A stretch of DNA of 64,000 nt, taken from contig NZ_ML701736.1 of NCBI RefSeq assembly GCF_008087345.1, forward strand, positions 1-64,000, written 5' to 3'. The notes below the pieces were generated by a model. It worked only from the letters and a program-made list of their open reading frames with translations, was not told where the DNA came from and searched no databases. This document shows, one piece after another, positions 9,422-35,700 of this stretch. The first letter of the stretch is position 1. Each line of letters begins with the position of its first letter. The position numbers were made by a program, and so were the translations under genes. The stretch comes from Nocardioides caldifontis (lineage in GTDB: Bacteria > Actinomycetota > Actinomycetes > Propionibacteriales > Nocardioidaceae).

Positions 9422-9480
9422 GGCTGCTCCTTGATGTTCGGGGCCGTGACCGGCCCGCCCGAGACCTTGTACGCAGCAGG

Positions 9481-9495
9481 ATACAACTGTATACA
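9481..9495. promoter_or_regulatory. Candidate GntR/FCD operator
   Basis: The tcuA-tctC gap contains ATACA-AC-TGTAT (9481-9492) overlapping the 8-bp palindrome TGTATACA (9488-9495). A further TTGTA/TACAA inverted pair spans 9467-9486. FCD regulators typically bind GT-N-AC palindromes of the TTGTATACAA kind. The A/T-rich element stands out in this GC-rich sequence and lies between the divergent starts, so it fits control of both units by the regulator at 7243-7902. Confidence 0.55.
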
Positions 9496-9508
9496 CGAGG
9501 GATGGAAT

Positions 9509-9528
9509 CGAGTGACCGCGGTCACTCG
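9509..9528. promoter_or_regulatory. CRP/GlxR-like palindrome upstream of tctC
   Basis: A perfect 20-bp palindrome contains GTGA-N6-TCAC, the consensus of cAMP-receptor-type regulators (CRP, GlxR). It ends 21 bp before the tctC start. The same 14-bp core (GTGACCGCGGTCAC) recurs at 62470-62483 ahead of the polyamine-type transporter genes. A site this close to the start would act as a repressor position or mark a promoter further upstream. Confidence 0.5.
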
Positions 9529-9549
9529 CGTCTCTCGGGAAGGACGCCC

Positions 9550-10566: not shown

Positions 10567-11075
10567 TGGCGGCCGGCAACGAGCCGGAGCCCACTTTCTT
10601 CGACCCGTCGCGCGATCGGCGTACCTCCCTCGCGACGATGATCCTCGGCGGCGTGATGCTCGCGCTGGGCGTCGTGGTCGTCGTCCAGGCCACGCGGCTT
10701 GACAACGGCGACGACGTCGTGGGCGCGGCGACGGCCCCCTGGGTGGTCGGCGGTCTGCTCCTCGTCTTCGGTCTGCTGATGGTGCTGCGCGGACGCCGGG
10801 ACATGGGGCCGTGGGAGGAGTCCACGCAGACCCACGCGCAGGACTGGAAGCGCACCGGCGTGATGGTTGCGGTGCTCCTGGCCTTCGCCCTCGTCGTCCC
10901 GTGGCTCGGGTACGTCGTGTCCGCGACGCTGCTCTTCGGCGCCACCGCGATCGTGCTCGGCGCCCCGGCGCGGGCGCGGTCCTTCGCCTACGGCTTCAGC
11001 GTGGCCGTGATCGTCTACCTCGCCTTCGACGTCCTGATCGGGATCTCGCTCCCGACCGGGCCGTGGGGCTTCTGA
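10566..11075 (+). CDS. tctB: Tripartite tricarboxylate transporter small membrane subunit
   Basis: This 169-residue protein has four predicted membrane segments (around residues 25-45, 58-74, 96-115 and 137-155), as in TctB. ATG 10566 overlaps the tctC stop (TGATG). An in-frame GTG three bases earlier is also possible. It forms the membrane complex with TctA and lies between tctC and tctA in the standard order. Confidence 0.85.
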   Translation: MAAGNEPEPTFFDPSRDRRTSLATMILGGVMLALGVVVVVQATRLDNGDDVVGAATAPWVVGGLLLVFGLLMVLRGRRDMGPWEESTQTHAQDWKRTGVMVAVLLAFALVVPWLGYVVSATLLFGATAIVLGAPARARSFAYGFSVAVIVYLAFDVLIGISLPTGPWGF

Positions 11076-17926: not shown

Positions 17927-20900
17927 GTGCGATTGACCGCCGACAAGGTTGTGTCCTGGAACGACCCGTCTGCGCCCGCCACCGTGACGACCGAGAAGGT
18001 GTACCTCGGCCCTGACCCGTTCGGGCTGGGCGGATTTCAGGTCGCAACCGCCACCGCGGTCGTCGCCCCATCACGGCAGGTTCTTCGCGACCTTTTCGCC
18101 AACCGCAAGGGCAGGACGCAGATCCAGCTGGTCGTCGCAGTCGCGCACGACGGCGTGGTCCATCTCTTCGGTCCGGATCCGCAGGCCCAGCCGATCGCGT
18201 TGCCGGAGGATCAAGCCGAACGTCAGCTCCAGTCGGTTCTCGCCGAGACTGATGTCCTGGCCGCGACGGAGCGGTTTGCTGGCTTCCGCAAGGCGAACGA
18301 CTCGACCGGCGTGGCGGGCTTCACTAACAGCGGGCTGTTTGCGTCGCACCACATCACGAGCAACGTGCCGAAGCGTTCTGACTGGGGGGCGCTCGGCAGC
18401 AAAGCGGCGCCCCTGCTCAGCAAACGCGGCAAGCAGCTCGTTGAGGCCCTCGGGTTCGGAACCCAGCCCGGGCCGAACGGCACGATGCTCCTGTCGATCG
18501 GCGGCCAGCCGCCGCGTGCGGTAGCCGTCCTCCTCGACGACTCCGAACAGTTCGATGCCAAGACCCAACGGTTTCAGCTCTCCCCGGTGGCGTTCGGTCT
18601 CGCCGTGGCCTCACGGCAGGAGGTCCCGTGGTTGGTGGTCCTTCGCAAGGACCAGATCCGGCTGTATCCGGGGCGTGACGGCGTCGGTGTTGGCTCCAAG
18701 GGGCAGGCAGAGACCTTCTTCGAGGTCGACCTCTCGACAGTCGATGCTGAGTACGCCGCGCTGCTGCCCCTGATCTTCTCGGCGGACGCGCTGGTCGCCG
18801 ACGGGACGGCCGATGAGCTACTGCGGGACAGCTCCCGCTACGCCACGGAGCTCGGCGCCCGTCTCAGGGAGCGCATCTATGACGAGATCGTCCCGCCAGT
18901 GGCAGTCGAGGTTGCGCAGAGGCTGGCGAAGCATGCCGCAGTCAAGCTCGACGCGGACGGTCTGGCACTGGCCTACCGGGTCACGCTTCGCATCCTGTTC
19001 CGGCTGCTCTTCCAGGCCTACGCCGAAGACCGCGGACTCCTGCCCTCGGGACGCAACGAGGGCTTCGACGCGAACAGTCTCAAGACGAATGCTCGCCGGC
19101 TGCTTGCCTCGGACTCCGACGAGTTCGGGGACTCGTCGACGATCTGGTTCGACCTCGTCCAGGTCTGGAATGCCATCGACCAAGGCAACCCGCAGTGGCA
19201 GATCCCGTCCTACAACGGCGGTCTGTTCGGCACCGACCCGGACCGTGCTCCCGAGGGTGCACTCATCAAGAAGATCGAGCTGCCGGACAGTGTGCTCGGA
19301 CCTGCGTTGCGGAGTCTGCTGATTGACGTCACCAATGACGGCGTGCTCGGACCGGTCGACTTCCGGTCACTGAGCGTGCGCGAGTTCGGCACCATCTACG
19401 AAGGCCTCCTCGAGAGCTCGCTCTCCCTCGCAGAGGAAGACCTCACCGTCGACAACAGCGGTGCCTGGGTGCCGGCCAAGGAGGGTGATGAGATCTATGC
19501 GCACTCCGGTTCGGTCTACTTCCACACCGCGTCGGGGGAGCGAAAGGCGACAGGCTCGTACTTCACGCCGAAGGTCGTCGTCGACCACCTCATCGAGCGC
19601 TCGATCGTCCCTGCACTGACCGCCCACCTCGAGAAGATCGCCACATACCTGAACCAGGGCGACGCGTCCGCCGCCGCGCGGGAGTTCTTCGACTTCCGCG
19701 TGGCTGACCTCGCGATGGGCTCAGGGCACTTCCTCGTTGCGGCGGTCGACAAGATCGAAGCGCTGATGCGGACGTTCCTCACCGAACACTCGGTGCCGGG
19801 GGTCACTGAGGAGCTGTTGCGCCTCGCCGCGGTGGCGCGCGACGCGCTCGGCACCGATGACGTTGCGAAGAGCGAGGTTGACGAGGTCGGCCTGCTTCGG
19901 CGTCAGGTTGCTCGACGCTGCATCTACGGGCTGGACGTCAACCCGATGGCTGTGGAACTCGCCCGTCTAGCGTTGTGGATCCACACGTTCGTGCCTGGGC
20001 TACCAATGAGTAACCTCGACCACGGCCTCGTGAACGCGAACAGCCTCACCGGGATCGGCACTATCGAAGAGGCCCTCGATGCGCTCCAGCCAAATCGCAA
20101 GCCGGGGGAGATGAGTCTCTTCGACGAGATCCTCACCGACCAGCTTGCCTCGTCGAAGACCCTCTTGATCGACGTGGCGAACGCAAGTGAGGCCAACAAG
20201 GCCGAGGTCGAAGAAGGTGCCCGCATGCTCGCGCAGGCACGGGAGGCTGCGGACACCGCTCGTCGGATCTTCGATGCCGCTGTCGCCGCGCGCATTGGAT
20301 GGATTCAGCCTGGCGTGATCCTGGACGAAGACTCGCTTCAGGAGGTCCTGAAGCGGCTCGAAGTTGCCGAAGCAGCTGCGGAGCTTGAGCCGGCACACAT
20401 GCCCTACCTCTTCCCTGAAGTCTTCCTGCGTGACAGATCAGGCTTTGACGTCATCTTGGGCAATCCTCCGTGGGAGAAGCTTCACGTTGAGGAGCATCAG
20501 TGGTGGGGGCTGCGCCTTCCGGGCCTCCGTTCCATGCCTACCAAGCAGCGGAATGCGACGCTCACAGCGTTTCGCGCTAGTCGACCTGATCTGGAGGCCG
20601 AGTACGAGACCGAGATCGAGCGTGTTCGCGCCATGGCCGAGGCGGTTTCGTCCGGACCGTACGTTGGCTTGGGCGCGGCTCACCTTGACTTGTTTCAGGC
20701 GTTCGCCTGGAGGAACTGGCAACTGCTTGGCTTGGGGGGACGCTCCGCGCTGGTGTTGCCGCGTGGTGCGCTAGCCGGCTCCGCGCTCACATCGTGGCGT
20801 CGCGAGATCCTGAGGAGCGGCTCGTTTGCCGACGTTTGCTTCTTGGTGAACAACCAAAAGTGGGTGTTTCCGGAGGTTCACCCTCAATACACGGTTTGCC

Positions 20901-21934
20901 TTACGGTGACTGAAAAGGGCGGCGAGAAGGTCGTGAGGTGGTCCGGCCCCTTCTCGAACGAGGAGGACTTCGTCAAGGGCGCCGGAGTTCTCGCTGAAGT
21001 GCCGGGCGACGAGTTCGTTTCCTGGTCGAATACGGCGGCCTTCCCGCTGATTCCTGATCCGCGGTCAGCAGAGGTCTTCCGTCAGATGAAGCGGAGTCCT
21101 CGGTTTGACGCAGTCCGGGCCGGCTGGGAATTCCGTCCGATTCAGGGAGACATGAACGCCAGCGGTGACCGCGGCGTCATGGAGTTCGACACAGAATCGG
21201 CGCGAGGACGAATCCCCATTGTCGCTGGTGCGAGCTACAACATCTGGGCACCCGACGCGGGGAGTCCGTTCGCGTACGGAGATCCCGAGGTTCTGCGTCC
21301 GCACCTGACTACCAAGCTGGCCAGTGCGGTGCGGCACTCGCGCTCGGCATACAACGGCCTGAAGTTCGCACCAAACACCCTGCCCCTCGACAGTGCGCGG
21401 ATCGCGTTCCGCGACATTGCGCGCGCAACCGACACGCGGACGGCGATTCCTTGCCTCCTCCCTCCAGGCACTGCCGCGGTGCACCAATCGCCAATCCTGG
21501 TGAGACGGCAGGGCGACGAAGCTGCGGAAGCATTCCTCCTGGGCGTGATGTCGAGCATCCCGTTCGACTGGGCAGCAAGGCGCTGGGTCGAGCTTCACCT
21601 CACGTTCGAGCTGTTGAATCCGCTGCCCGTTCCGGCTTACGACGCTGACTCCCCGTTTTGCCGGAGGGCTCGCGAGATCGCTGGTCGCCTCGCCGCTATC
21701 GATGACCGCTACACAGACTGGGCGGCTGCAGTCGGGGTTCCGGTGGGGTCGGTGAAGACTCCTGAGGAGAAGGACGACCTCATCGCTGAGCTCGATGCGC
21801 TGGTGAGCCTGTTGTACGACCTCACTGAAGACCAGGTCGAGCATGTCTTCGCGACCTTCCACCGTGGCTGGAACTTCGAAGTCCGCCTCGACGCGGTCTT
21901 GACGCACTACCGAGAGTGGAAGGGCAAGGCATGA
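17927..21934 (+). CDS. Large Eco57I/PglX-like class I DNA adenine methyltransferase
   Basis: This 1335-residue protein starts at GTG 17927 behind TGAGGAGA. An N-terminal region of about 590 residues precedes the methyltransferase core. The SAM-binding motif I is DLAMGSGHF (594-602) and the catalytic motif IV is NPPW (846-849), typical of N6-adenine methyltransferases. A C-terminal target-recognition-like region follows. Size and layout resemble PglX of BREX, DrmMI of DISARM and type IIG enzymes, but no nuclease motif was identified. Its stop overlaps the helicase start (ATGA). It probably marks self DNA for the restriction genes downstream. Wobble positions are A/T-richer than in flanking housekeeping genes. 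Confidence 0.85.
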   Translation: MRLTADKVVSWNDPSAPATVTTEKVYLGPDPFGLGGFQVATATAVVAPSRQVLRDLFANRKGRTQIQLVVAVAHDGVVHLFGPDPQAQPIALPEDQAERQLQSVLAETDVLAATERFAGFRKANDSTGVAGFTNSGLFASHHITSNVPKRSDWGALGSKAAPLLSKRGKQLVEALGFGTQPGPNGTMLLSIGGQPPRAVAVLLDDSEQFDAKTQRFQLSPVAFGLAVASRQEVPWLVVLRKDQIRLYPGRDGVGVGSKGQAETFFEVDLSTVDAEYAALLPLIFSADALVADGTADELLRDSSRYATELGARLRERIYDEIVPPVAVEVAQRLAKHAAVKLDADGLALAYRVTLRILFRLLFQAYAEDRGLLPSGRNEGFDANSLKTNARRLLASDSDEFGDSSTIWFDLVQVWNAIDQGNPQWQIPSYNGGLFGTDPDRAPEGALIKKIELPDSVLGPALRSLLIDVTNDGVLGPVDFRSLSVREFGTIYEGLLESSLSLAEEDLTVDNSGAWVPAKEGDEIYAHSGSVYFHTASGERKATGSYFTPKVVVDHLIERSIVPALTAHLEKIATYLNQGDASAAAREFFDFRVADLAMGSGHFLVAAVDKIEALMRTFLTEHSVPGVTEELLRLAAVARDALGTDDVAKSEVDEVGLLRRQVARRCIYGLDVNPMAVELARLALWIHTFVPGLPMSNLDHGLVNANSLTGIGTIEEALDALQPNRKPGEMSLFDEILTDQLASSKTLLIDVANASEANKAEVEEGARMLAQAREAADTARRIFDAAVAARIGWIQPGVILDEDSLQEVLKRLEVAEAAAELEPAHMPYLFPEVFLRDRSGFDVILGNPPWEKLHVEEHQWWGLRLPGLRSMPTKQRNATLTAFRASRPDLEAEYETEIERVRAMAEAVSSGPYVGLGAAHLDLFQAFAWRNWQLLGLGGRSALVLPRGALAGSALTSWRREILRSGSFADVCFLVNNQKWVFPEVHPQYTVCLTVTEKGGEKVVRWSGPFSNEEDFVKGAGVLAEVPGDEFVSWSNTAAFPLIPDPRSAEVFRQMKRSPRFDAVRAGWEFRPIQGDMNASGDRGVMEFDTESARGRIPIVAGASYNIWAPDAGSPFAYGDPEVLRPHLTTKLASAVRHSRSAYNGLKFAPNTLPLDSARIAFRDIARATDTRTAIPCLLPPGTAAVHQSPILVRRQGDEAAEAFLLGVMSSIPFDWAARRWVELHLTFELLNPLPVPAYDADSPFCRRAREIAGRLAAIDDRYTDWAAAVGVPVGSVKTPEEKDDLIAELDALVSLLYDLTEDQVEHVFATFHRGWNFEVRLDAVLTHYREWKGKA

Positions 21935-24900
21935 CCCAGCTCCCTGACTTCGCGACTAACCACGCGCCGAGCGACGCCGCGACCACGGTGGCCGACAAGG
22001 TCAATGAGTTGTTCCGGCTTCTTCGCGAGAACCGGGTGACGGCCCCGCCTATCGCCATCGCGACGGCATACGTCAACCCGGCCGGGTTCGCACTCTTGGC
22101 TGATGAGCTGGAGACGGCACCGCGGGTGCGCCTGCTGCTCGGTGCGGAGCCGGAGGAGGACTCGGTTCGGGCGATCACGTCGGGGGACTCCGACCAGGAT
22201 GCGCGTCGGGACGCGGCCATCGAACACCACCAGGCATGGCTTGAGGCGGAGCGCGACACGATGGGCTTCGCGCGCGTGCCGACCGCTGAGGCGAAGCGGA
22301 TGGTCGAGTGGCTGAAGAGCGTCGACCCCGAAGGAATCGCCAAGGTCGAGGTGCGGCGCTACGCCGGCGGGTTCCTCCACGGCAAGACCTACCTCGTCGA
22401 GGATGGAGCGGCGCAAGCCGCCATCGCGGGATCGTCCAACATGACCTACGCCGGCTTGGCTCACAACGCTGAACTGAACCTCGGCACCGGTGGTGGCACG
22501 AGTTCGGCGGCCAAGGTGCGTGAGTGGTTCGAGCACTTCTGGAGCCTCAGCGACCCGTATGACTTGGCCGGCCTCTACGGTCGCCTGTGGGACCCCCACA
22601 CACCCTGGGTGATCTACCTCCGGATGCTCTGGGAGCTGTACGGCGAGCATCTCGACGAGGACGAGAACCCCAACGTTCGCACCGGACTCAACCTCACCCG
22701 ATTCCAGGCCGACGGTGTCGCGCGCATGGAGCGACTCTTGGACGAGCACGGCGGAGTCCTTGTCGCCGACGAGGTGGGCCTCGGGAAGACCTTCCTCGCG
22801 GGCGAGGTCATCTACCGCACCGCCAACATCAACCGACAGCGCGTGCTCATCGTGGCGCCCGCTGCGCTGAAGACCTCGATGTGGGAGCCCTTCCTCGTCA
22901 CCCACGACTTCAGCCGGTGGGTGAAGGTCTACTCGTACGAGGAAGTCCGCAACCGGCTCGATCCGGACAAGGGGCCGGTCGACGCCTTCCTCCAGGAGAT
23001 CGAGGACTACTCACTCATCGTCATCGACGAGGCCCACAATCTGCGGAATTCGGGGGCGCAGCGGTCGGGCGCGGTCGACCGCGTCATCACCGCCGGCAAT
23101 CCGAAGAAGGTCGTGCTGCTGACCGCGACGCCCGTCAACAACTCGCTCACCGACCTCGAGACGCTCGTCAAGTACTTCATTCGTGACGATGCCCGATTCG
23201 CCTCACTCGGCATTCCCAGCATCAAGGCGTACATCAAGCACGCTCAGGACATGGATCCGGCCAACCTGACGCCGGAGCACCTGTTCGACCTCATGGACCA
23301 GGTCGCGGTGCGCCGTACGCGCAAGTTCGTCAAGGAGCACTACGCCAACGAGATGATCATCGGGCCGGACGGAAAGCCGACGACGATCAAGTTCCCGCAG
23401 CCGAAGGTGCGTCGGATCGAGTACCCCCTGGACGCCGACGGCTTGGCCCTCATCGATGCGATGGTCTACGCCCTTGACGACCCGACCGACCCCCACGCGC
23501 CTCGCGCGTGGGAGGACCGCAGCCGCGACCCGAAGCGCCTCATGCTCGCCCGCTACCTGTCGAGCATGTACACCGTCGACCACGACCTGCAGGAGTACCA
23601 GATCAGCAACGTGGGCCTGCTCCGGTCCGGTCTGCTGAAGCGGCTGGAGTCGAGTCCCCAGGCCCTGCACGCGTCTCTGGAGAAGATGATCGCCTCCCAC
23701 GAGGCCTTCCTCGATGCTCTGGGAAAGGGCTTCGTGCTCAAGGGGGAGGCGCTGAGCGAGTGGGTCTCGTCGGACTCGGACGACCTCGACGAGTTCGTCC
23801 TCGAGTTCGACAAGGATGACCAGATCGAGTCGGTCGATGGCTACCACCTGACCGAGCTCAAGGCCGACGTCGAGTCAGACATCGTGTTGCTACGCGAGCT
23901 GAGCGACCTCGCCGCTGTCGTCATCAAGGGGACGGAGCCCAAGGTCGAGAAGCTCATCGAGGAGCTGACCCAGATCGCAGCAGATGCCCAGCGCACCGAC
24001 CCCAGAGGGCTCTCACACTCGGACCGGCGCAAGGTCATCATCTTCTCGGCCTTCACCGACACGATCCTTCCGATCTACGACGCCGTCGAGGAGGCGATCA
24101 AGAAGGCCCCCGCGGGATCGCCGCTGGCGGACTACAGGGACCGGGTGGCCCCGCCGATCATGGGTTCATACGCGAAGACCCATGAGCGCGGCGCCAGCGG
24201 TGGCGTCGATCAGGGAGGACGAGCATCCACGATCGCCGGGTTCGCGCCGGCGACGGCCGGCCCCCGAAACGCAGCTGGGGAGCCCACAGCCAAGGACGAG
24301 TTCGACATCCTGTTCACCACAGATGTTCTTGCCGAGGGCGTCAACCTTCAGCAAGCCGGCCAGATGATCAATTACGACCTCCCGTGGAACCCGATGCGGA
24401 TCGTCCAGCGCCACGGTCGAGTGGACCGCATCGGCTCCAAGCATGACTACGTCTACCTCGGGCTCTTCTTCCCGGCCGAGCGTCTTGACGAGCTGCTGGC
24501 CCTGGAAGCTCGCCTGGAGGCGAAGCTTGCCCTGGCTGACGCGGCTGTCGGCGCTGGTGAGGTGCTTCCGGGGAGAGGCCCTGGTCACGAGGTGAACCTC
24601 GCTGACGACGAGGTCACCGACGAGTTCGAGAAGTTGCTCGACGCCGGCGGCTCCAGCGCGTCCCTGTCCGGAGAGGAATACCGCCGCAGGCTCTTCGGCG
24701 CCTTCAACATGGAGCCGGTCGTCAAGGAGGATGCCCTAAGCCTTCCGTTCGGCGCGGGCAGTGGCTTCGTGAACCCGGTCGTGCACGGCAACGGCTATGT
24801 GTTCTGCGTCAAGATCGGGAAGAGCCGCCAGCCCTGGTTCCGCTACGTCCCGACGGACGAAAACTGGGCACTGCGTTACACGGACGATGGCGCGCCGATC

Positions 24901-25392
24901 GTTTCGCCCGACACTCTCGTCTCTCTGCGCGTCGCCGACCCGCAGAACGCGACGGCGGAGCGCTGGTTGCCCGAGGACGTCTACGACCACGCATTCGACG
25001 CCTGGGAGGTAGCACGCGACAGCGTCTACGCAGCGTGGAAGGAGCTCACCGACCCCAATGCGTTCCAGCCCGACCTGCCGCTGTCGTTCCGCGACGCCTA
25101 TGCGCTCGTCCTCCAGAGGGGCACCTTCCTGGACAAGGACGAACGCATCGAACTAGCAAGTCGGTTGCGCAGTGTTCCCACCGCCAAGGTCGCGCGACAG
25201 GTGCGCGGGGCCCTCAATCAGGGTGCAACCGATGAGCAGCGCATCAAGCTGGTCCGCGAGGTACTCGATGAGGCCGGGATCACCGCTCCGCCTCCGCGCG
25301 ATCCGCTCCCCGATATCGAGAAGCACGAAGTCCGGCTCGTGACCTGGATGGCAGTTCGGGGGACTCGCGGGCTGGAGGGATCGAGCGGCTGA
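21931..25392 (+). CDS. PLD-domain SNF2-family helicase
   Basis: This 1153-residue protein starts at ATG 21931. An N-terminal phospholipase-D-like domain carries a single HKD-type motif (HGKTYLVED, then GSSNMT, about residues 150-175). A SNF2/RapA-type motor follows: Walker A GLGKT (283-287), DEAH (366-369), LLTATPVNN, and a C-lobe with TTDVLAEGVNLQQ and RHGRVDRIGS. Length is close to DISARM DrmD, a SNF2-like helicase found beside an adenine methyltransferase. A translocase with an attached nuclease-like domain fits restriction of unmodified DNA. It is co-translated with the methyltransferase, and a hairpin at 25612-25638 separates it from the next gene. Confidence 0.85.
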   Translation: MTQLPDFATNHAPSDAATTVADKVNELFRLLRENRVTAPPIAIATAYVNPAGFALLADELETAPRVRLLLGAEPEEDSVRAITSGDSDQDARRDAAIEHHQAWLEAERDTMGFARVPTAEAKRMVEWLKSVDPEGIAKVEVRRYAGGFLHGKTYLVEDGAAQAAIAGSSNMTYAGLAHNAELNLGTGGGTSSAAKVREWFEHFWSLSDPYDLAGLYGRLWDPHTPWVIYLRMLWELYGEHLDEDENPNVRTGLNLTRFQADGVARMERLLDEHGGVLVADEVGLGKTFLAGEVIYRTANINRQRVLIVAPAALKTSMWEPFLVTHDFSRWVKVYSYEEVRNRLDPDKGPVDAFLQEIEDYSLIVIDEAHNLRNSGAQRSGAVDRVITAGNPKKVVLLTATPVNNSLTDLETLVKYFIRDDARFASLGIPSIKAYIKHAQDMDPANLTPEHLFDLMDQVAVRRTRKFVKEHYANEMIIGPDGKPTTIKFPQPKVRRIEYPLDADGLALIDAMVYALDDPTDPHAPRAWEDRSRDPKRLMLARYLSSMYTVDHDLQEYQISNVGLLRSGLLKRLESSPQALHASLEKMIASHEAFLDALGKGFVLKGEALSEWVSSDSDDLDEFVLEFDKDDQIESVDGYHLTELKADVESDIVLLRELSDLAAVVIKGTEPKVEKLIEELTQIAADAQRTDPRGLSHSDRRKVIIFSAFTDTILPIYDAVEEAIKKAPAGSPLADYRDRVAPPIMGSYAKTHERGASGGVDQGGRASTIAGFAPATAGPRNAAGEPTAKDEFDILFTTDVLAEGVNLQQAGQMINYDLPWNPMRIVQRHGRVDRIGSKHDYVYLGLFFPAERLDELLALEARLEAKLALADAAVGAGEVLPGRGPGHEVNLADDEVTDEFEKLLDAGGSSASLSGEEYRRRLFGAFNMEPVVKEDALSLPFGAGSGFVNPVVHGNGYVFCVKIGKSRQPWFRYVPTDENWALRYTDDGAPIVSPDTLVSLRVADPQNATAERWLPEDVYDHAFDAWEVARDSVYAAWKELTDPNAFQPDLPLSFRDAYALVLQRGTFLDKDERIELASRLRSVPTAKVARQVRGALNQGATDEQRIKLVREVLDEAGITAPPPRDPLPDIEKHEVRLVTWMAVRGTRGLEGSSG

Positions 25393-25777
25393 CGTCTCGG
25401 AGGCGCCGATAGTGCGGCGGGAGGAGGGTTCAGCTGCGTGGTCGTGCGGGCCGAGCTCTCACATGAAGGCGTCTAAGGAGACTGTTGTAGTCCCCGGCCG
25501 GCCCCAGTCGAACCGGCTGGACTTGTCGAATAGATGGTGCGAGCGGTCAGCTCGACTGGAAACCACCTCGGCCCAAATGACGTCCCACCGGGTGGTGTAG
25601 TTCCGGGTTTACCTTCGTCTCGCTGACGGAGACGAAGGCTGCTGTACTGCAGCGTTGCAGAACTCGTTCCGCGCCAGTCTTGACTCGACACCTCCACGAT
25701 CTGGCAAAAGGTACGTACGGTTCATCTCGGCCGTCGCTAAGCTGTATGCCCAGACGTGAACAGGGGGACTACGGGGC
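25393..25777. other. Intergenic gap splitting the defence block
   Basis: This 385-bp stretch between the PLD helicase and the SF1 helicase holds no supportable gene. It contains the hairpin at 25612-25638. The last 140 bp are A/T-richer and carry a TTGACT hexamer near 25680 that could be a -35 element for the second transcription unit. No convincing -10 pairing was found. Confidence 0.5.
25612..25638 (+). terminator. Hairpin between the two defence transcription units
   Basis: CCTTCGTCTC (25612-25621) pairs perfectly with GAGACGAAGG (25629-25638) around a 7-base loop. It lies 220 bp after the helicase stop and 140 bp before the SF1 helicase start. The likely role is termination of the methyltransferase-helicase transcript. 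There is no T-run. Confidence 0.55.
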
Positions 25778-27340
25778 ATGCCGACTGCTCGCTCATCCAG
25801 TTTGGAACAGGCGCTGACAACGCACTTGACTGAGGCTGGCCTCAGCGTCTTCTGGCCGGAGTCCGACGACCTGCCAAGCCTGGTCGCGGTGGATGCTCAG
25901 TGGGGCCTTCTGGTTGTCGACCTCGTTGAGCACGAGGAGGGCGCCCTTGTCGAGCTCAACCGCAAGCTCGCTCGACTTCGCAACGACATCCCGCAGATCG
26001 CACGAGTGCCCACGCAGAGGCTAGTTGTAGCCGGCGACGCAAGTGCTTCTGACGGCCGCACCTTGGCGCTCGCGGATGTATTCGAAGGCACCTTTGTCTC
26101 GGGACTCACGCCGAATGCGATTGACGAAGGTGCCGTCAGCGCGGTCACGGACCGCTTTGCACCTCGCCTCAGTATCGACGTTCCTCGCCGTGACCCGATG
26201 TCGGACGAAGGTGCGTCTGCTCGAGCTGCGCGGCGGCTCGTGCTAGACGCCACGCAGAGCGGCATCGCTTGCAGGAAAGTGGAAGACGTCCTCCTCGTCA
26301 CCGGTCCACCGGGTAGCGGGAAAACCCTGGTCCTGGCCGCTCGAGCCAAGTGGCTGGCGACCCAGAATCCCAGTTGGCGCATCGTGTTGCTCTGCTACAA
26401 CCGCTTGCTTGTCCCGTACCTGGAAACCTTGGTCTGGGGCCACGCCAACATCACGGTCTGCACCTTCGGGCAGCTGACAAGTCGACTTCGGATCCGCGTC
26501 TCCCTCGACAACGAGGAGTGGGCCAGGCAGAACGTCAAGCACGCGCTAAAGCAAGTCAAGCCGGTGTTCGACGCAGTCCTCGTTGACGAATGGCAGGACT
26601 TCATGGATGCGTGGACCCGCCTCGTCCTGGCCACGGTCCGGCCCGGGCGGGGCGGTGTGACCCTGGCCGGTGACCCCAAGCAGGCGCTCTATCGCGACGC
26701 GAACAGCGAAGTCGCCCTCGCAGGCCATGAAGTGGAGATGGCCACGCTGACCCGTCCCTACCGATCAACGCGGCAGATCCTCGAAGTCACCTCAGCGCTG
26801 GACAGGACGATGGATGTGAAAGGCCGGGAGGACGCCTTCGACGGTCAGGCGGTGGACCTCGTCTGGGCGGAGAACGTGTCAGAGCTCGGGGCCGCCATCG
26901 CTCGCGACATCCAGCTCCTCCTCGCGGAGGACAAGCGGAATCCCCAGGACATCGGAGTGCTCGTCACCCGGAAGTGGGACATCGGAAAGGTGATGTACGC
27001 CTTGAAGAAGGTCAGCGTCCCGGCGCGGGCCGTGTATCCGAACCAAGCGAAGGAGTTCGACCTGTCGGAGCCTTCGGTCAAGGTGATGACGGTGCATTCG
27101 GCGAAGGGCTACGAGTTCGACGTCGTCTTCCTGGTCGGGATGGAGCACCTCGCCGATCCTGACGGAAGCGAGCGTGCCGGTCGCGAGGGACGCTGTGGCT
27201 ACGTTGGTTCGACGCGGGCCAAGGACCAACTGGTGCTCACCTACTCCCGCGACAACGTCTACCTCGACCGGATCCGCTCGCTGCCCGATGAGCTGGTACA
27301 GCAATGGGTATGGCCCGACGACTATCCCGAGGTCGGCTGA
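25778..27340 (+). CDS. UvrD/Rep-like SF1 helicase with divergent N-terminal domain
   Basis: This 520-residue protein has about 150 N-terminal residues of unrecognised, possibly degenerate nuclease-like sequence (LVAVDAQWGLLVVDLVE). An SF1 motor follows: Walker A GPPGSGKT (about residues 179-186), Walker B-like VDEWQDF, the Q/R motif GDPKQALYRDA, and the UvrD-type C-terminal VMTVHSAKGYEFDVVF and YVGSTRAKDQLVLTYS. It is compact for a UvrD protein, with short accessory insertions. Its stop overlaps the start of the kinase-fusion gene (TGATG), so these two and the following genes form the second operon of the block. Confidence 0.8.
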   Translation: MPTARSSSLEQALTTHLTEAGLSVFWPESDDLPSLVAVDAQWGLLVVDLVEHEEGALVELNRKLARLRNDIPQIARVPTQRLVVAGDASASDGRTLALADVFEGTFVSGLTPNAIDEGAVSAVTDRFAPRLSIDVPRRDPMSDEGASARAARRLVLDATQSGIACRKVEDVLLVTGPPGSGKTLVLAARAKWLATQNPSWRIVLLCYNRLLVPYLETLVWGHANITVCTFGQLTSRLRIRVSLDNEEWARQNVKHALKQVKPVFDAVLVDEWQDFMDAWTRLVLATVRPGRGGVTLAGDPKQALYRDANSEVALAGHEVEMATLTRPYRSTRQILEVTSALDRTMDVKGREDAFDGQAVDLVWAENVSELGAAIARDIQLLLAEDKRNPQDIGVLVTRKWDIGKVMYALKKVSVPARAVYPNQAKEFDLSEPSVKVMTVHSAKGYEFDVVFLVGMEHLADPDGSERAGREGRCGYVGSTRAKDQLVLTYSRDNVYLDRIRSLPDELVQQWVWPDDYPEVG

Positions 27341-30300
27341 TGGCGGATCTGCGGGTCAAGGGCGAGTATGTAGGGCCAGGTGAGCAGCGGACCGCCGAGC
27401 ACCTCGCGGAAACCCTCCCGGAAGACTGGGTCATTTTTGCGGGCAGGAAGCTGCCAGGCCCGAACCGTGACGACGCCGACCTTGTCATCGTCGGCAAGTC
27501 GCTTGTCTTCGTCATCGAGGAGAAGGCCTGGGGTCCGACTGTCGTCGTCGACGACAACAACTGGTACGTCGGCTCAGACGCACGGCCGAACCCGCTGAAT
27601 CGTGTGGGTCAGGTGGCGCGCATCGTGGCCGGTACTCTCAAGCAGCGGGCCAACGGGTATAGGAATCTCGGTTCGGCCCACCGCGTCGTACCGGCCGTGG
27701 TCCTAAGCCACCCCAAGCTGCAAATCCTGCGTGGGCACAACCACGACGAACGGGAGCACATCTGGGCACTCTCGGAAGCCGCGGATGCGATCCTGGCTCT
27801 GGACGAGCGATTCCCGGGATCGGGCCTGGGCGTCGCCCGTCGCCCCGTCATCGCCTACCTCGACGACCTGCCGAAGCCCGACGGCAAGCCGACCCTTGGC
27901 GGGTACACGCTGGATTCCCGGGTTGCCAGCGCCGGACGGGAACAGGCGTGGTCCGCCACGGATTCGACCGGCGAGCGGCTGGTGCTGAAGTGCTATCCCT
28001 CGGCGGCCTTTGGCGCCCACGGGGATCCCGAGGAGTTTCTGCGACGGGAGTACGTCGCTGTCAACCGGGTTGCAGACCTCGGCCGGACGTGGCGCGCGTT
28101 CCCACCCTTCAAGGACGACACCGGCAGCCTCTTCGTCGTACCGGTCGTGCCCCCCAGGGGCGGCATGACCCTGCGTGCGTCGGTGCAGGACGGGGTGCCT
28201 GAACGTCGTGACGGCCGGTTGGACGACCAGATCGCGCGGGCTGTGACCATCGACGCCTTCCGCGCGCTTCAGGACATCCACGACGCAGGCCTCGTGCACC
28301 GGGCGCTTCATCCCAAGCGCGTGTGGCTGCACCAGAAGCGGCGCGTCATGTTCAGCGACCTCAACTTCGCCCGTGTCGTGGGCGACGAGTCGATCGCCCT
28401 GTGGGCCGACGACGGCGACATGAGCGAGGACTACCGGGCGCCCGAATGCGCGCCCAGCCTCGCGCTCGCGAACAGCAGGTCGGACGTGTTCAGCCTGGCG
28501 CTGTGCCTCGGCTACTGGTTGCTGGGAAGAGACGTCATGGAGCTCACCCACGAGGAGCTGGGCCGCGCCGTGGCCACGACATATCCGTGGGCCGAGCCGA
28601 TGCTCCGGGCGCTGTCTGGTGCCTCGAAGGACCGGCCTCATGCCGGAGAACTGGCCGACGAGCTCGTGGCGCCCACGCCGTCGCCGGAGCCGATACCAAC
28701 GCCCTTGGGGGTTTTCGAGGAGGGGGGCCTGATCGCTGATCGCTACGAGATCGTCCGCAAGCTGGGCAGCGGGGGGTTCGCGACGTCGTGGAAGGTCTAC
28801 GACCGTCAGCGCGAGCTGCCCATGGTGCTCAAGCAGTTCCACGAGGACGTGCCCGACAACGTGCGCGCCGAATTCCAGTCTGCCCACGGACTGCACTACG
28901 ACTACTGCGGAAGCGTCTACGACATCCATGTCAACGAGGCGCCGCACTACCTGGTCTCGGAGTACGTCGAGGGCGAGAGCCTCGCCGACGAGGGCCAGGC
29001 GTTCGCAGTCGAGCAGCTGCGCGACATCGCCGTCTGCATCCTCAAGGCCCTCGACTACATTCACAACCGCGACCGGGTCCACGGGGACGTCACGCCCTCA
29101 AACGTGATCGTGTCCCCGGACGGCAGCAGTGCGAAGCTGATCGACTTCGGCCTCATGGTGCGCGCCGGTAAGCGGCCGGCCGGGCAGACGCCCAGGTTCG
29201 CGGCGCCGGAGTTGAGCGACGGCGAGCCCGCGACTGTGTCCAGCGATCTGTTCGGCTTCGCCGCGACCATGGCCTACGCCATGCTCGGGCGCCCGGTTAG
29301 CTCGACGGCGTCCGGCAGCTTCGAGTTGATCCCGCCGACCCTTGCAGAAAGGGAGGCGTGGGGCCACGGCGGAACAAGGCTGCTGGAGACGTTCTTGATG
29401 GCAGCCAAGTTGGCGCCGGTTGACCGCCCGCGATCCGCCGCGGAACTTCTCGACCTCGTGCGGAGCACGCGCATCGCCTCGGAACCCGACACGCCCTCAG
29501 ACGGCGAGGACACGTTCCGTGTGAACCCCAACGTCGCAGCGATCAGACGGCTGTACCGCGCGAGCTCGATCGGCAACGCCGGCAACCGCGGGCTGGACGA
29601 TGAGTTCGCCCTCGCGACGTATGTCCCCACGCGCCTCGACCAGAACCTCGTTCCGAGGGTGTTAGCCGGCGACCTGGACGTGGTACTTCTCAGCGGCAAC
29701 CCAGGCGACGGAAAGACCTCGCTCCTGGTGCAACTTGGTCAGTTGCTCAGGGACCGCGGCGCGGAGGCTCTCCACTCGGACGACGCAGGATGGGTCCTGC
29801 GACTGCGGGACCGCACCTTCCATGCGGTGTTCGATGCCAGCGAAGCTCACGGATCGCTGAGCTCAGATGAGCTGGTGAAGCAGGCGCTGGAGCCGGTCCG
29901 CACGTTGAGCGATGGACCGGCCACCGCTCTCATCGCGGTCAACGACGGGCGCCTGCACCAGTTTTTCGAAGACAACAGCGATATCTACGAGGACTGGTGG
30001 TTTGAGATCCAGGACCAGATCGCGGGACGAGACCCCGGCACCTCCCGGGTAGTGCTCGTTGACCTGAAACGCCGATCGTTGGCTTCCACGGACGCAACGG
30101 GCTTGTCCGACCGGGCCCTCGCGTCCCTGGTCCGACCCGAGCTCTGGGACACCTGCTCCTCCTGCGCAGCTCGGACGGCCTGCCCGATCCTCGTCAATAG
30201 GGACCGCTTGAGCGGGCCGGGCGCGGGTGCGTTCAGCGAGCTGATGCTGATCAGCCACCTGCGGCGCCGGCGCCGGGCGACCTTCCGTGACGTCCGGTCC

Positions 30301-31131
30301 GCGGCCGCCTGGGTCATCACGGGTGATCGGGACTGCGCCGAGGTCCACGAGCTGGTCCGGCAGGGGAGGAACGCCAGCTTGATGTCCGACGCCCTCGCGC
30401 ACGACCTCGCCTTCGCGACCGACAGCAACGACTATCTGATCAACGAGTGGAGCGACCTGGATCCCGCGCTGGTGCCGAACCCGAGTGTCGACAGGGCCCG
30501 GCGGCAGTCCTCCACGGCCGACGGGACCGCGTTCCTCCGCAGCAGCGAGAGCGCCGCCCGCTCCATCTACTTCGGCGAGCGCGTCGCCGACGACATCACT
30601 CGCAGCGATGTCCGCGTGTACCGCTACTTGAGCGAGTTCGTCAGGATGCTTCACGGCAACGACCCCATCGCCACCAGGGACCGCCTGCTGCTCGGCATCA
30701 GCCGGCTGCTCGGCGCGCCCGGCTACCGGTCGTCCGGCCTTGCGTTCGGCGTCGGTGCAGGGGACTCGAACTGGGCCATTCTCCACGCGATCGAGAGCGA
30801 GGCCTTCACCGTGCACGTCGCCGATTCGACGCACCCATTCGTGGAGACGATGCCCGACCTGCTCGAGCTTCGCCACGAGTCTGGGGCGTCGAAGCACACG
30901 CTCAGGCTCAACCTCGACACCGCCGAGATGATCCTGCGCGCCGCCGACGGCGAGCTCGTGGACGACCCGGCGTCTGACGCGATCCGCCAGGAGATCGATG
31001 CCTTTGTCGGGCAACTGAGCCGCCATCCCTCGAAGGCCGCGCACATCGTGGACTCGTCCGGCTCGGTGACCACAGCCACCATCCGCGGCGTTGCGATCTC
31101 GTTCGCGCTCGACGGGGAGGAGCGTTCGTGA
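27340..31131 (+). CDS. NERD-pseudokinase-kinase-DptF-like ATPase fusion
   Basis: This 1263-residue protein starts at ATG 27340. Residues ~10-130 form a NERD nuclease-related domain (GEQRTAEHL, DDADLVIV, VIEEKAW). Residues ~190-450 are kinase-like but HRD is HRA (320-322) and DFG is replaced, so this is a pseudokinase. Residues ~470-720 are an intact Ser/Thr kinase: GSGGF loop (476-480), HGD (581-583), DFG (602-604). The last ~500 residues carry a P-loop GNPGDGKTS (786-794) and a CSSC..CPI cysteine cluster as in DptF, the ATPase of Dnd phosphorothioate restriction. NERD plus kinase recalls PglW. Its stop overlaps the next GTG. Confidence 0.75.
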   Translation: MADLRVKGEYVGPGEQRTAEHLAETLPEDWVIFAGRKLPGPNRDDADLVIVGKSLVFVIEEKAWGPTVVVDDNNWYVGSDARPNPLNRVGQVARIVAGTLKQRANGYRNLGSAHRVVPAVVLSHPKLQILRGHNHDEREHIWALSEAADAILALDERFPGSGLGVARRPVIAYLDDLPKPDGKPTLGGYTLDSRVASAGREQAWSATDSTGERLVLKCYPSAAFGAHGDPEEFLRREYVAVNRVADLGRTWRAFPPFKDDTGSLFVVPVVPPRGGMTLRASVQDGVPERRDGRLDDQIARAVTIDAFRALQDIHDAGLVHRALHPKRVWLHQKRRVMFSDLNFARVVGDESIALWADDGDMSEDYRAPECAPSLALANSRSDVFSLALCLGYWLLGRDVMELTHEELGRAVATTYPWAEPMLRALSGASKDRPHAGELADELVAPTPSPEPIPTPLGVFEEGGLIADRYEIVRKLGSGGFATSWKVYDRQRELPMVLKQFHEDVPDNVRAEFQSAHGLHYDYCGSVYDIHVNEAPHYLVSEYVEGESLADEGQAFAVEQLRDIAVCILKALDYIHNRDRVHGDVTPSNVIVSPDGSSAKLIDFGLMVRAGKRPAGQTPRFAAPELSDGEPATVSSDLFGFAATMAYAMLGRPVSSTASGSFELIPPTLAEREAWGHGGTRLLETFLMAAKLAPVDRPRSAAELLDLVRSTRIASEPDTPSDGEDTFRVNPNVAAIRRLYRASSIGNAGNRGLDDEFALATYVPTRLDQNLVPRVLAGDLDVVLLSGNPGDGKTSLLVQLGQLLRDRGAEALHSDDAGWVLRLRDRTFHAVFDASEAHGSLSSDELVKQALEPVRTLSDGPATALIAVNDGRLHQFFEDNSDIYEDWWFEIQDQIAGRDPGTSRVVLVDLKRRSLASTDATGLSDRALASLVRPELWDTCSSCAARTACPILVNRDRLSGPGAGAFSELMLISHLRRRRRATFRDVRSAAAWVITGDRDCAEVHELVRQGRNASLMSDALAHDLAFATDSNDYLINEWSDLDPALVPNPSVDRARRQSSTADGTAFLRSSESAARSIYFGERVADDITRSDVRVYRYLSEFVRMLHGNDPIATRDRLLLGISRLLGAPGYRSSGLAFGVGAGDSNWAILHAIESEAFTVHVADSTHPFVETMPDLLELRHESGASKHTLRLNLDTAEMILRAADGELVDDPASDAIRQEIDAFVGQLSRHPSKAAHIVDSSGSVTTATIRGVAISFALDGEERS

Positions 31132-32741
31132 CCTTCGCCATTCCCAAGGGACTCACCCAGAACTCGCTCATCACCGAAAACGTCATCAACGTCGAACTCA
31201 ACGACACCGACATCGACCGGATGATGACGAAGATCCTCGAACGGGCCGTCAAGCGCGGCCGAGTTTCGGGTTCGCGCGTGGACACCAAGGCCTACGACGG
31301 TTATCTGGCAAAGCTACAGCGGTCCCCGCACCTCGCGGGCGTTGACGGGGACCGGGGGCTCGAAGTCCTCGACGGGTGGATCCGGTCGTCCGTTCTGGTC
31401 CAGGAAACGGCAGGCCTGCGCCGGGACACGGTTCAGATGGGCTACCTCCGCCCGCTCACTATCGCTGCTTACCGCAGTGGGCTACCTCGGAGCCAATCCC
31501 GCAACCGCCGAGCGGACGCGCTCGCCTACAAGGCAATGGCCCGCATGATCAAGGCTCGTGGCGACGAGAACGAGTCGGCGGTCATTCAGACACTGTTCTT
31601 GGAAACTTTCGGCCGGGGCGTCGAGCTGGGCCCGTTCCCGTCGACCAACCCCTCGTACGACGGCTCCGAGGTCGACATCGACACGCTTCTGGCCCTCCGG
31701 TTTATCGAGCAGTTCGAGGGGAACGAGGCGCACAACCGAGACCTCGAGCCGCTCGACCCGCCCGTACCCCTTGCGGTTGACCCAGTCGGACAGGACCTCC
31801 TCGACTTTCTGACGTTCTACGGCCCCAAGCTCCCGGTCGCCGAGGCGTATACGCACCTCTCAGCCCTGCTGAGCCTGCGCCTGTTCCAGCTGCCTCTGGT
31901 CACCGCACATGCGGTACGGTCTCTACTCTCCACCGGGGCTCAGCTGCCCGTAGGAGCCAATCCGTGTGCCCAGTACTTCGACTTCGTGCGCCTGCGCGGT
32001 CACCCGTCGGACGAGCTGTCACGGATGTCGGTCCAGCGCGACCTCGAGGTAATGCGCACGTTCTTCGGTGACCGCTTGTTGCTGCGCTCGCTGCAGGAGG
32101 CCGTCGCTGTGCTGCCGACCAAACCGGATCTGGGCGAAACAGCGGCAGCGCGGATGGCTGCTCTTGCCGCGCTGAAGGATGACGGCATGATGCAGATGGC
32201 CCTACAGATGCAGATCAGTACGATCGAGGCGGCGCTGGCGCCGACGGACGAGGGTCGTGCGTTCGTCGCGGAGGTGAGGGCCTCAGAGGGCCTCACCGCA
32301 GCTGATCAACTGACGGCGATCCTCGTCGAGGGTTTGCGCAAGCGGGGTCTAGAGAACCAAGTCAAGTGGTTCCACTCTGCCGGAGGCATCAAGAAGGCCT
32401 ACGGCGTTCTTAAGGGCGACCTTCGTTCCCGCGGCAGCTGGCGTTACTCGCTTTCCGACGAAGGGTTGGTCGCTCTGCTGTGCATGGTCTTCGTAGACCG
32501 CAGCGGTCAGCGGACCACGACCAGGCTGCCGATCCGGGAGGTGCTGAGCCGGCTTGAGCGACGCTTCGGGATCCTCATCGACGCACCCCCGGCGGATCTC
32601 GACTCCGCCGACGCACGCGCCGGCGCGGCGGCGAACCTGTCTGCCTTCACTCAGCGGATGAAGCTCCTCGGCTGCTTCGAGGGGCTGTCCGACGATTTCA
32701 ATGCTCAGTTCGTGACCCGACCCAGGGAGGCGGCCAAGTGA
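31128..32741 (+). CDS. DptG-like restriction component (tentative)
   Basis: This 537-residue, mostly helical soluble protein starts at a GTG overlapping the kinase-fusion stop. No catalytic motif is visible. The segment LDFLTFYGPKLPVAEAYTHLSALLSLRLFQLPLV (which spans about residues 222-255) resembles the way DptG proteins read. Its place between a DptF-like ATPase and a DptH/HerA-like ATPase is the Dpt F-G-H order. It is longer than Dnd-associated DptG. The call rests mainly on position and general character. It should be treated as an uncharacterised scaffold subunit until a profile search is run. Confidence 0.5.
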   Translation: MTFAIPKGLTQNSLITENVINVELNDTDIDRMMTKILERAVKRGRVSGSRVDTKAYDGYLAKLQRSPHLAGVDGDRGLEVLDGWIRSSVLVQETAGLRRDTVQMGYLRPLTIAAYRSGLPRSQSRNRRADALAYKAMARMIKARGDENESAVIQTLFLETFGRGVELGPFPSTNPSYDGSEVDIDTLLALRFIEQFEGNEAHNRDLEPLDPPVPLAVDPVGQDLLDFLTFYGPKLPVAEAYTHLSALLSLRLFQLPLVTAHAVRSLLSTGAQLPVGANPCAQYFDFVRLRGHPSDELSRMSVQRDLEVMRTFFGDRLLLRSLQEAVAVLPTKPDLGETAAARMAALAALKDDGMMQMALQMQISTIEAALAPTDEGRAFVAEVRASEGLTAADQLTAILVEGLRKRGLENQVKWFHSAGGIKKAYGVLKGDLRSRGSWRYSLSDEGLVALLCMVFVDRSGQRTTTRLPIREVLSRLERRFGILIDAPPADLDSADARAGAAANLSAFTQRMKLLGCFEGLSDDFNAQFVTRPREAAK

Positions 32742-35700
32742 CGGCGTCGGCTAATGAACTGCTCACGTCCACACTCGCCCACCATCTTGCCTCACTACTC
32801 GACGAAGCGGAGCCGGGACACTGTGTGCGCGTCGACGACGTGAATGCCGCGCTGGCTCCCGATCTCGCCTTCGCCCTCTCGGAGAAACTGTCGAAGGCCG
32901 CCGTCCACGTGCTTCGGGCGCACCCCGAAGGCCCCCGGGAGATCGCGGCCGAGCGCGCGATCGAAATCCGCAACCGCAAGCAGCAACCGTGCGTCCTAAT
33001 CGTGCCGGCGGGGGAGGGCCACGCCGCTAGCTCCCTCGACAACTCGTTCCAGCGAATCCCCGTCCTCGACGCTTACACCCACGTCGAGCGACTGCTGCTC
33101 GATCGCATCGGCGACCAGGTTGTCCGCGAGCTGGCCGTCCGGAACCGGCGCTGGCTGCGGGCGCAACGCCAGGAGGCTTGGACCGAGTTCCTCGCCCAGC
33201 TCTGCGTCGAACCGACCGAGGCCGCCTTCGGGCGGAACCTGTGGATGGTGGGTCTGGTGCCAGACCACGCCGACCACCCAGGCAACCGCGTCGAGCGGAA
33301 CCGGCTGGCGGTGCAGGCGATCAGCCGCCCCTCGCGGCCGGCGGCCGCGATGGACGAGCGGTTCACGGTCGCGGGACTCCAGGAGGGGCCATGGCGCGGG
33401 CCACTGCGCCGGTTCTGCGAGCAGCGGGGAGCGCAGCTCGCCAACCCGCGCCTCTGGGCTCAGGCGATCGCCGAGCACCATCCCGAGCTCACCTTCGACA
33501 AGTGGCCCCTGGCGGAGGACATCGCCGAGGACATCGACGAGCTGGAGGTCGTGCCCTTCACCAGTGCGGCGGGCACAGTCGAGAAGTGGAGCAAGCTCAA
33601 GCAGGGAGCCGACGGCCAGCTGGTCCTCGAGGTGCCAGAAGGAGGTACCGGCTCCGTCACCGTCAAGTGGAGGACCGCTCCCGCCAACATTGCCGCGGTG
33701 GCCAAATGGGAGCTGTCGGTAGTCCCGCCGGATGATCTGCGCACAGACGACACCGAACCTCTAGCGTCGACAGTGATCGCGGGCGGCCGCCGTCAGGGCA
33801 CTGTCAAGGTTGCCCTCGAGGAGGACTCCCTGACCGCCGGGACCCGGTTCGTGGTGAGCGTACGGGCGATCGCGGAGCACGGGGAGTCGGTCAACCTCAC
33901 GTCCGGCGATCCGGCCTCCGCGGACAGTCAGGAGTTCCAGATCGTCGGCGCCCAGGAGGGCGAGACGAAGACCCGGCGGACAGCGGCCACGAGCGTCCCC
34001 GAGGCCGTTGTCCGCGCTGCGCTTGATGGTCTCGACGATCTGTCCGAAGACCTAGTCTCCTGGGACTTGGACGGACAGGTCTTTTCCCTGCGGCTTGGGA
34101 ATAGGCGCGCCGTCCAGGTCCGGATCTGTGCCCCGCTGATCAGCTGCCAGCGCACGGCCACCGCGCAGCCCGACCGGCCGGTGCACTTCCGCGCACGCGG
34201 AGCCCACGGCACGCCGCTTGAGCCGGACCGGGTCGAGGAGATCGAACTGGCGCTTCCCGCCGCGCTCAAGCGGGCGCGCTCGGAGTTCTTGGCGGCCCTC
34301 GCTGGCACGCCGCACCGGGACACGATCGAGTCGGCGGCCTGGAGTGAAGGGCTGCGCGAGCTCGCCGCGACGTATGCCGCGTCCTACAAGCGGGCGCTTG
34401 AGCTCCCAGGACAGCAGCTCGACGACCTGCTGCGGATGGACACGATGTCGCTCGACGTCTTGCGTAGCAACACCGTCATCCGTGCCGTCATCGTCCTCCC
34501 GACGCACCCGCTGCGTGCGGCCTGGGCGGCGACTCACGACCTCGTTCTGCGGGACTGGGCTCAGCAGCTCACCGAACTGACCCCGCGTGGTGCGCGTGCG
34601 CGCATGGTCGATGCCGATCTAGTCGCCCAGGTCGTGCCGGCGAACCTGCCGTTCACCGTCCCCGTCGATGGCGAACTCGCGGTGTACACCGAGGAGCTGA
34701 CGTTTGGCTCCGGGCTCTATCTCGTGCCCGGCGACGTCGATAGTGAAGCGGCCGCCGAGTCTGTGGCCTCGGTGCTGGAGTTGCAGCGGGCCGGATCGAC
34801 GATGCGAGCGTCGTCGCAGATGGTGGCCGAGCGGATCAAGGCCTACGAAGCCGCGCACAACCCCGGTGGGACGCTGCGGGTGCTGGCGGTCAACCCCGGT
34901 TCAGGGGGGTTACTCGCCGGCGCTCTTCGTGAACCTGTCCAGCAGGGCGAGGATGATGAGGAGGACCCGCGGCGGCTGGAAATCCTGGTTTACTCCGACA
35001 GCCCGTCCTACACCCAGCCCGTGCCGGCCCTCTCCGGCCTGCAGCAGAGTATGCGTCGCCGCGAGCTCGCTCGGAAGACTACCCACCTGACGCCTCCGCT
35101 GTCCCTGTCGGTGCGCCGCGTCAACGACCTCAAGACGGACCCGCAGGGCGCACACCTGACGGTCATACAGGACATCGGCGCACCTGCAGTCGATTTCGGG
35201 CCGGATCCCGAACGTCGCCCGGCGTTCGAGGACCTCCTCGTGCCGATCGTGACCCGCTCGTTCACCGAGGCTGGTGACCTGATCTGGGAGAGTGCTGCGG
35301 CGACCGGCCCGTCCACCGGTGGCGGCGACGGCGAGCTGCCCGTCGTGCACCGCACCCACCAGCGCGCTGTGGCGCGGCTCGCCTCGTCGCCGGAGGGGGC
35401 AGTTCCGGCCGTCAAGGTGGTGCTGGACGGGGAGCATCAGGCCCGCATCGGCGCGGCCCACGCCAGGTCGGATTGGGTGATCGGCGTCGACCGGTTCATC
35501 GGTGTTGACCTGTTCGAGCTCGGCACCGGCGCGATCGGCGAGTCCTACATTCTCGACTATGCCCCGGACTTCGTTGAGGGCATCGGCGAGCGCCTCACCG
35601 TGACCACTGCGAACCGTCGCGAGGTGGAGCTTCTCCTTGAGGAAGCAATGCGCGAGCTTGGCCTCGCCGACGTTCAGCACAGCGTTGGCGGGGTGCTGTC

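Follow-up and report, generated by a model that had tools for sequence, protein, structure and literature searches.

The 64,000-nucleotide stretch of the Nocardioides caldifontis genome analysed here (contig NZ_ML701736.1, positions 1 to 64,000, hereafter the window) contains a gene for a protein of 1263 residues, which a preliminary description read as a NERD nuclease, a pseudokinase, an active kinase and a DptF-like ATPase in one chain, with a PglW-like front and a DptF-like back that would physically link BREX-type signalling to Dnd-type restriction. This raises the question of whether the protein is a special bridge between two defence systems, or a member of a system of its own. We consider it probable that the protein is a divergent MAD6, that is, a kinase-fused DndF/SspF subunit, which would belong to a kinase-gated F-G-H anti-phage restriction complex often accompanied by a UvrD-like helicase.

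Domain composition of the fusion protein

All four modules were recovered within one intact ORF, in the order NERD, pseudokinase, kinase and P-loop/Cys tail (Table 1). Conservation was assessed in an alignment of 77 fusion ORFs from several phyla, including that of the window, following a scan of bacterial genomes that yielded 410 relatives, 80 of which were kept; the scan was keyed on tail motifs, placing tail-less fusions outside its reach.

Table 1 Features of the locus in the window (residues of the MAD6-like protein are counted from the start at 27340)
Feature	Coordinates	Strand	Evidence or remark
Type IIG/DrmMI-like DNA methyltransferase	17927..21934	+	PADLOC PDLC03620, 1e-251
HKD/PLD-SNF2 helicase gene	21916..25392	+	Ends 385 nt before UvrD-like gene
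UvrD-like SF1 helicase gene, 520 aa	25778..27340	+	UvrD_C 1.3e-20; coupled to mad6-like gene
mad6-like gene (kinase-fused DndF/SspF-like), 1263 aa	27340..31131	+	Intact open ORF
NERD nuclease domain (residues about 13-122)	27376..27705	+	PF08378 1.5e-12; E15, D47, E60-x-K62
Pseudokinase (residues about 172-439)	27853..28656	+	HRA at 320-322
Active-type Ser/Thr kinase (residues about 463-718)	28726..29493	+	Pkinase 96 bits, 2.6e-27
DndF/SspF-like core (residues 715-1263): P-loop, helical lid with Cys cluster, alpha+beta domain	29482..31128	+	SspF match, AF2
Walker A GNPGDGKT (residues 786-793)	29695..29718	+	G789, K792, T793 in 77/77
Cys cluster C939-x2-C942-x5-C948	30154..30183	+	All three Cys in 77/77
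mad7-like gene (DndG/SspG position), 537 aa	31128..32741	+	NF047733 391.4 bits, cut-off 410
mad8/DndH-like gene, 1669 aa	32738..37747	+	PD-ExK nuclease + HerA translocase

The NERD residues E15, D47, 60 (either E or D) and K62 are kept in 76 of 76 alignable relatives. The first kinase-like region is a kinase fold: scanned alone it matches Pfam Pkinase at 37.1 bits (cut-off 31.7), its profile aligns with the active kinase of PglW (E 9e-12), and both lobes are visible in an AF2 model of the kinase pair. As the preliminary description had it, HRA stands in place of HRD and DFG is absent, the corresponding position being occupied by DLN (340-342), in which the Asp is present. The HRD Asp is replaced by A, N or G in all 77 fusion ORFs, among which the DFG position is also altered, and the ATP-lysine position is variable in one of two deep clades (A, to which the window belongs) and Arg in the other (B). 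Since its HRD Asp is missing, this domain is predicted not to be catalytically competent. The second kinase carries the expected GSGGF, HGD583 and DFG602, together with K498, E511 and N588, and its model matches PknB with a Z of 28; HxD583, N588 and D602 occur in 77 of 77 fusion ORFs, and K498 and E511 in 76. Its DFG, typical of clade A, contrasts with the DFN of clade B, where the canonical MAD6 proteins of MADS are found. The AF2 models were built from 53 sequences, and for the kinase pair a pLDDT of 89.5 with a pTM of 0.69 indicates that the individual folds can be relied on, and their relative arrangement to a lesser degree.

This front (residues 13-714) aligns with residues 17-833 of PglW at an hhalign probability of 100 (E 1.2e-51), bearing out the proposed resemblance; in PglW of type 2 BREX the NERD domain, the pseudokinase (HRA/HRG) and the active kinase are colinear and homologous with those of the window. 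The match stops after the kinase, beyond which profile alignment finds nothing in common between the PglW tail and the DndF-type tail.

The tail, in turn, is matched by five SspF profiles (PADLOC SspF, 5.9e-19), and hhalign pairs it with a stand-alone SspF-like protein over 459 columns (probability 99.5, E 3.8e-22), a protein that itself precedes SspG-like and SspH/DndH-like genes and lacks the NERD-kinase front. Judged by these alignments, the tail is homologous to SspF/DndF over its full length, and no other ATPase family fits it better by sequence. The DptF model TIGR03238 does not match the MAD6-like protein at E<=0.1, nor anything in 247 actinomycete genomes or the controls, and the SspF profile was therefore used instead. 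C999 and N868 are, like the Walker A and cluster residues, present in 77 of 77 fusion ORFs, and the Cys cluster is likely a metal site. Given this uniformity and the equally constant loss of the HRD Asp in the first kinase, the residue pattern is not accidental.

The chemistry of the tail is less easily assigned. Its AF2 model is of high quality (pLDDT 91.6, pTM 0.91), yet a PDB sequence search with the tail returned no DndF relative, and fold searches gave middling AAA+ matches with no DndF structure among them. It is possible, at somewhat less than even chances, that the tail is an AAA+ ATPase of the Orc1/Cdc6 or STAND kind, with D832 as Walker B, N868 as sensor 1 and R983 as sensor 2, acting as a switch or oligomeriser rather than as a P-loop nucleotide kinase. 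The best fold matches are to Orc1/Cdc6 (1fnn, Z 9.8, rmsd 4.8, 245 aligned) and STAND proteins, AAA_16 matches at 7e-5, and the three proposed residues are invariant in 15 sequences. However, the Z of the fold match is close to the background of unmatched models, the best Foldseek E is only 0.07, and the DndF core is classed as a derived P-loop kinase in PMC10853773. Overall, the fold matches modestly favour AAA+. This reading concerns the tail alone and would alter its chemistry, not the family of the protein, and so is compatible with our preferred assignment to a kinase-gated MAD6. The fit of the invariant D832, N868 and R983 (window 29695-30400) to Walker B and the two AAA+ sensors disagrees with the P-loop kinase reading in the literature.

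Partner genes and affiliation of the locus

The partners that identify the system, MAD7-like, MAD8/DndH-like and UvrD-like, were missed in the preliminary description. The ATG of the mad6-like gene at 27340 overlaps the stop of the UvrD-like gene (TGATG), and its own stop overlaps the start of the mad7-like gene (GTGA, 31128-31131); from these overlaps, the genes across 25778-37747 are predicted to be a translationally coupled series. The similarity of the MAD7-like protein to SspG is weak. The MAD8-like protein combines a MAD8-like N-terminus with a DndH/HerA-like C-terminus, the latter matching the solved DptH structure 7es4 (E 6.6e-6). Its PD-ExK nuclease residues D1056, E1073 and K1075 are kept in 65, 64 and 63 of 65 relatives, respectively, and its HerA translocase (residues about 1330-1657) is intact, with Walker A in 65 of 65. 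Homology to a stand-alone SspFGH-like trio extends over long stretches of both the tail and the MAD8-like protein, and the order MAD6-like, MAD7-like, MAD8-like is kept across phyla. The window shares with SspFGH/DndFGH (DptFGH) both the F-G-H order and homologous F and H proteins, the latter with nuclease and HerA translocase; for G, the sequences give only a weak connection.

MADS, reportedly an anti-phage system described by Maestri in 2024, has MAD6, MAD7 and MAD8 among its genes, in the same order as the three genes of the window. Its canonical MAD6 (clade B) is the same full fusion, of about 1380-1400 residues, and canonical loci of clade B contain MAD2, MAD5, MAD6, MAD7 and MAD8 above the NCBIfam cut-offs. 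In contrast, the window falls below all of the corresponding cut-offs (NF047741, 334.9 against 460 bits; NF047733, 391.4 against 410; NF047742, 62.4 against 175), lacks MAD2 and MAD5, and has a UvrD-like gene in front. Membership of MADS was rejected on the scores and the missing genes. The MAD2 methyltransferase has no above-cut-off match in the genome, where a distant hit of 98 bits lies on another contig. More generally, MAD2 methylase and MAD5 specificity genes are found at 0 of 41 clade A loci and 30 of 35 clade B loci, and in 0 of 9 clade A genomes against 6 of 6 clade B genomes. Certain genomes (e.g. L062, L031) appear in both sets of loci, which makes the two counts non-independent. 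Because a regular-expression search for methylase motifs lacked sensitivity, a MAD2 profile was used, which unrelated methylase types would escape. The phosphorothioation gene DndC is likewise absent in 9 of 9 clade A genomes (G000 included). We thus describe the locus as MADS/DndFGH-like, apparently methylase-free and of known architecture. Its less usual aspect is that this branch of kinase-fused DndF occurs without the methylation genes that true MADS carries.

The NCBIfam MAD6 model NF047741 (612 positions) matches window positions 27340-29100 and ends inside the second kinase, so that in MAD6 proteins of approximately 1400 residues the DndF-type half goes unseen.

We find no BREX module and no DndABCDE module here. 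The PglW equivalog scores 49 bits against a cut-off of 990, and none of the five further genes within 17927-37747 reaches a BREX equivalog cut-off for PglX, PglY or PglZ. Moreover, the architecture is not new. In Rakesh, Aravind and Krishnan 2024 (PMC10853773), the DndF core is reported fused to NERD, to tandem inactive and active kinases, and to the combination of both; domain order, dead-then-live kinases, the Cys insert and linked G and H proteins are all as in the window protein, from which that architecture does not differ. DndABCDE is not needed in those systems, and DndFGH is proposed there as a stand-alone defence. According to a 2026 BREX paper, the tripartite arrangement of PglW is identical to that of these DndF proteins (PMC12839542). 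Consequently, while the joining of a PglW-like front to a DndF-like back holds, the special bridge between BREX and Dnd that it was taken to represent is rejected: the fusion is widespread, ancient, already published and the usual form of MAD6. MADS is not mentioned in the accessible text of PMC10853773 and PMC12839542, and the equation of MAD6-7-8 with kinase-fused DndF-G-H may thus be a connection that these comparative papers have yet to make explicit. At the protein level it ties together three separately named systems, with BREX PglW represented in the front, DndFGH/SspFGH in the back and the partners, and MADS in the whole trio.

Distribution and age of the fusion

Trees of the front and of the back show the same deep split between clades A and B. 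Clade B is monophyletic in each, but the back tree, for which a single sequence served as root, does not resolve clade A as monophyletic. This agreement points to one old fusion, which most likely predates both clades. Clade A keeps the F-G-H trio, and a UvrD-like gene adjoins the fusion in the window and in 11 of the 41 other loci of clade A, against 0 of 35 clade B loci. Besides ORFs lying antisense to core genes, only the UvrD-like and HKD-SNF2 helicases stand out as recurrent neighbours of clade A fusions. Three pattern hits on viral contigs included no relative, and the best matches on plasmids are partial only and 25-28% identical.

At one further locus (L147:7915-17484), an SspFGH-like trio has a C5-cytosine-type methyltransferase gene directly before it, in a genome without DndC.

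Proposed kinase gating and its alternatives

Domain order, the dead first kinase, the conserved catalytic residues, the DndF tail and the coupled partners are all readings of the sequence; upon them we infer kinase-gated regulation of the MAD8-like nuclease-translocase. Under this model the tail would dock the protein onto its MAD7- and MAD8-like partners and sense nucleotide or phage DNA; upon an infection signal, the pseudokinase, which would otherwise hold the neighbouring kinase, would release it to phosphorylate itself or its partners, and this phosphorylation would license the MAD8-like protein to translocate and cut DNA, while NERD would serve as a second nuclease. The allosteric switch suggested in the preliminary description is plausible, given that a dead pseudokinase invariably neighbours a live kinase. 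We also count in favour of gating that PglW, which has the same front, requires its kinase activity for phage resistance, the substitution K677A abolishing autophosphorylation (PMC4365076). The weak similarity of the MAD7-like protein to SspG tells against this model, and the sequence evidence fits sensing by the tail no better than sensing at another site.

The main alternative is that NERD and the kinase are backup suicide effectors, deployed when restriction by the MAD8-like protein is blocked, such that NERD would cut host DNA and the kinase phosphorylate host proteins, leading to cell death. This has been stated for DndF fusions by Rakesh et al. 2024 (PMC10853773) and for PglW (PMC12839542), and the intact NERD catalytic residues are in keeping with it. 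Nevertheless, we regard it as unlikely, as the front is fixed in all 77 ORFs, beyond the need of an occasional backup, and the conserved pairing of a dead with a live kinase is better accounted for by regulation.

A still less probable proposal is that the methyltransferase and HKD-SNF2 helicase (17927-25392) supply self-marking, making the locus a six-gene DISARM/MADS hybrid. Both genes lie directly upstream on the same strand, and an HKD-SNF2 helicase, accompanied in two cases by a methyltransferase, is found in the vicinity of 4-5 further clade A loci. However, the 385-nt gap precedes the UvrD-like gene, neither gene is present in the closest relatives (86% and 74% identical), a search of the 8 other clade A genomes at E<=1e-30 returned no relative of the window methyltransferase, and most clade A loci have no methylase neighbour by motif regex and MAD2 profile. 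No promoter- or terminator-like site was found in the gap, which is uninformative for an actinomycete. The methyltransferase was rejected as a core part, being not conserved, and together with the helicase it is probably a module separate from the quartet.

An HKD/PLD-SNF2 helicase was seen near clade A fusions (the window, L063, L083, L051 and L057) and near none of clade B, and a large methyltransferase stands beside it in three cases, the window included. This recurrence could reflect a habit common to defence islands or a loose connection in function.

Clade A, without MAD2 and MAD5, offers a smaller four-gene system in which the contribution of the kinase to restriction could be studied free of methylation. 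The broader view that MAD6-7-8 and DndFGH/SspFGH form one family of kinase-gated restriction machines, in which clade A works without partner DNA modification and the pseudokinase-kinase pair, and not methylation, decides when the MAD8-like nuclease-translocase cuts, is doubtful and is put forward only tentatively.

A MAD6-model search of 395 actinomycete genomes, independent of the tail-motif scan as the model covers the front, found the full NERD-pseudokinase-kinase front at MAD6/clade A level always in an ORF of more than 1250 residues. The same genomes yielded stand-alone proteins of approximately 480-530 residues, in 14 of the 395, with NERD and the dead kinase alone (HRAL, GFD; e.g. L148:9068-10501, L151:9221-10816 and L150 about 9119-10600 on the minus strand), which pass the NCBIfam MAD6 cut-off and so would be misnamed 'protein kinase MAD6'.
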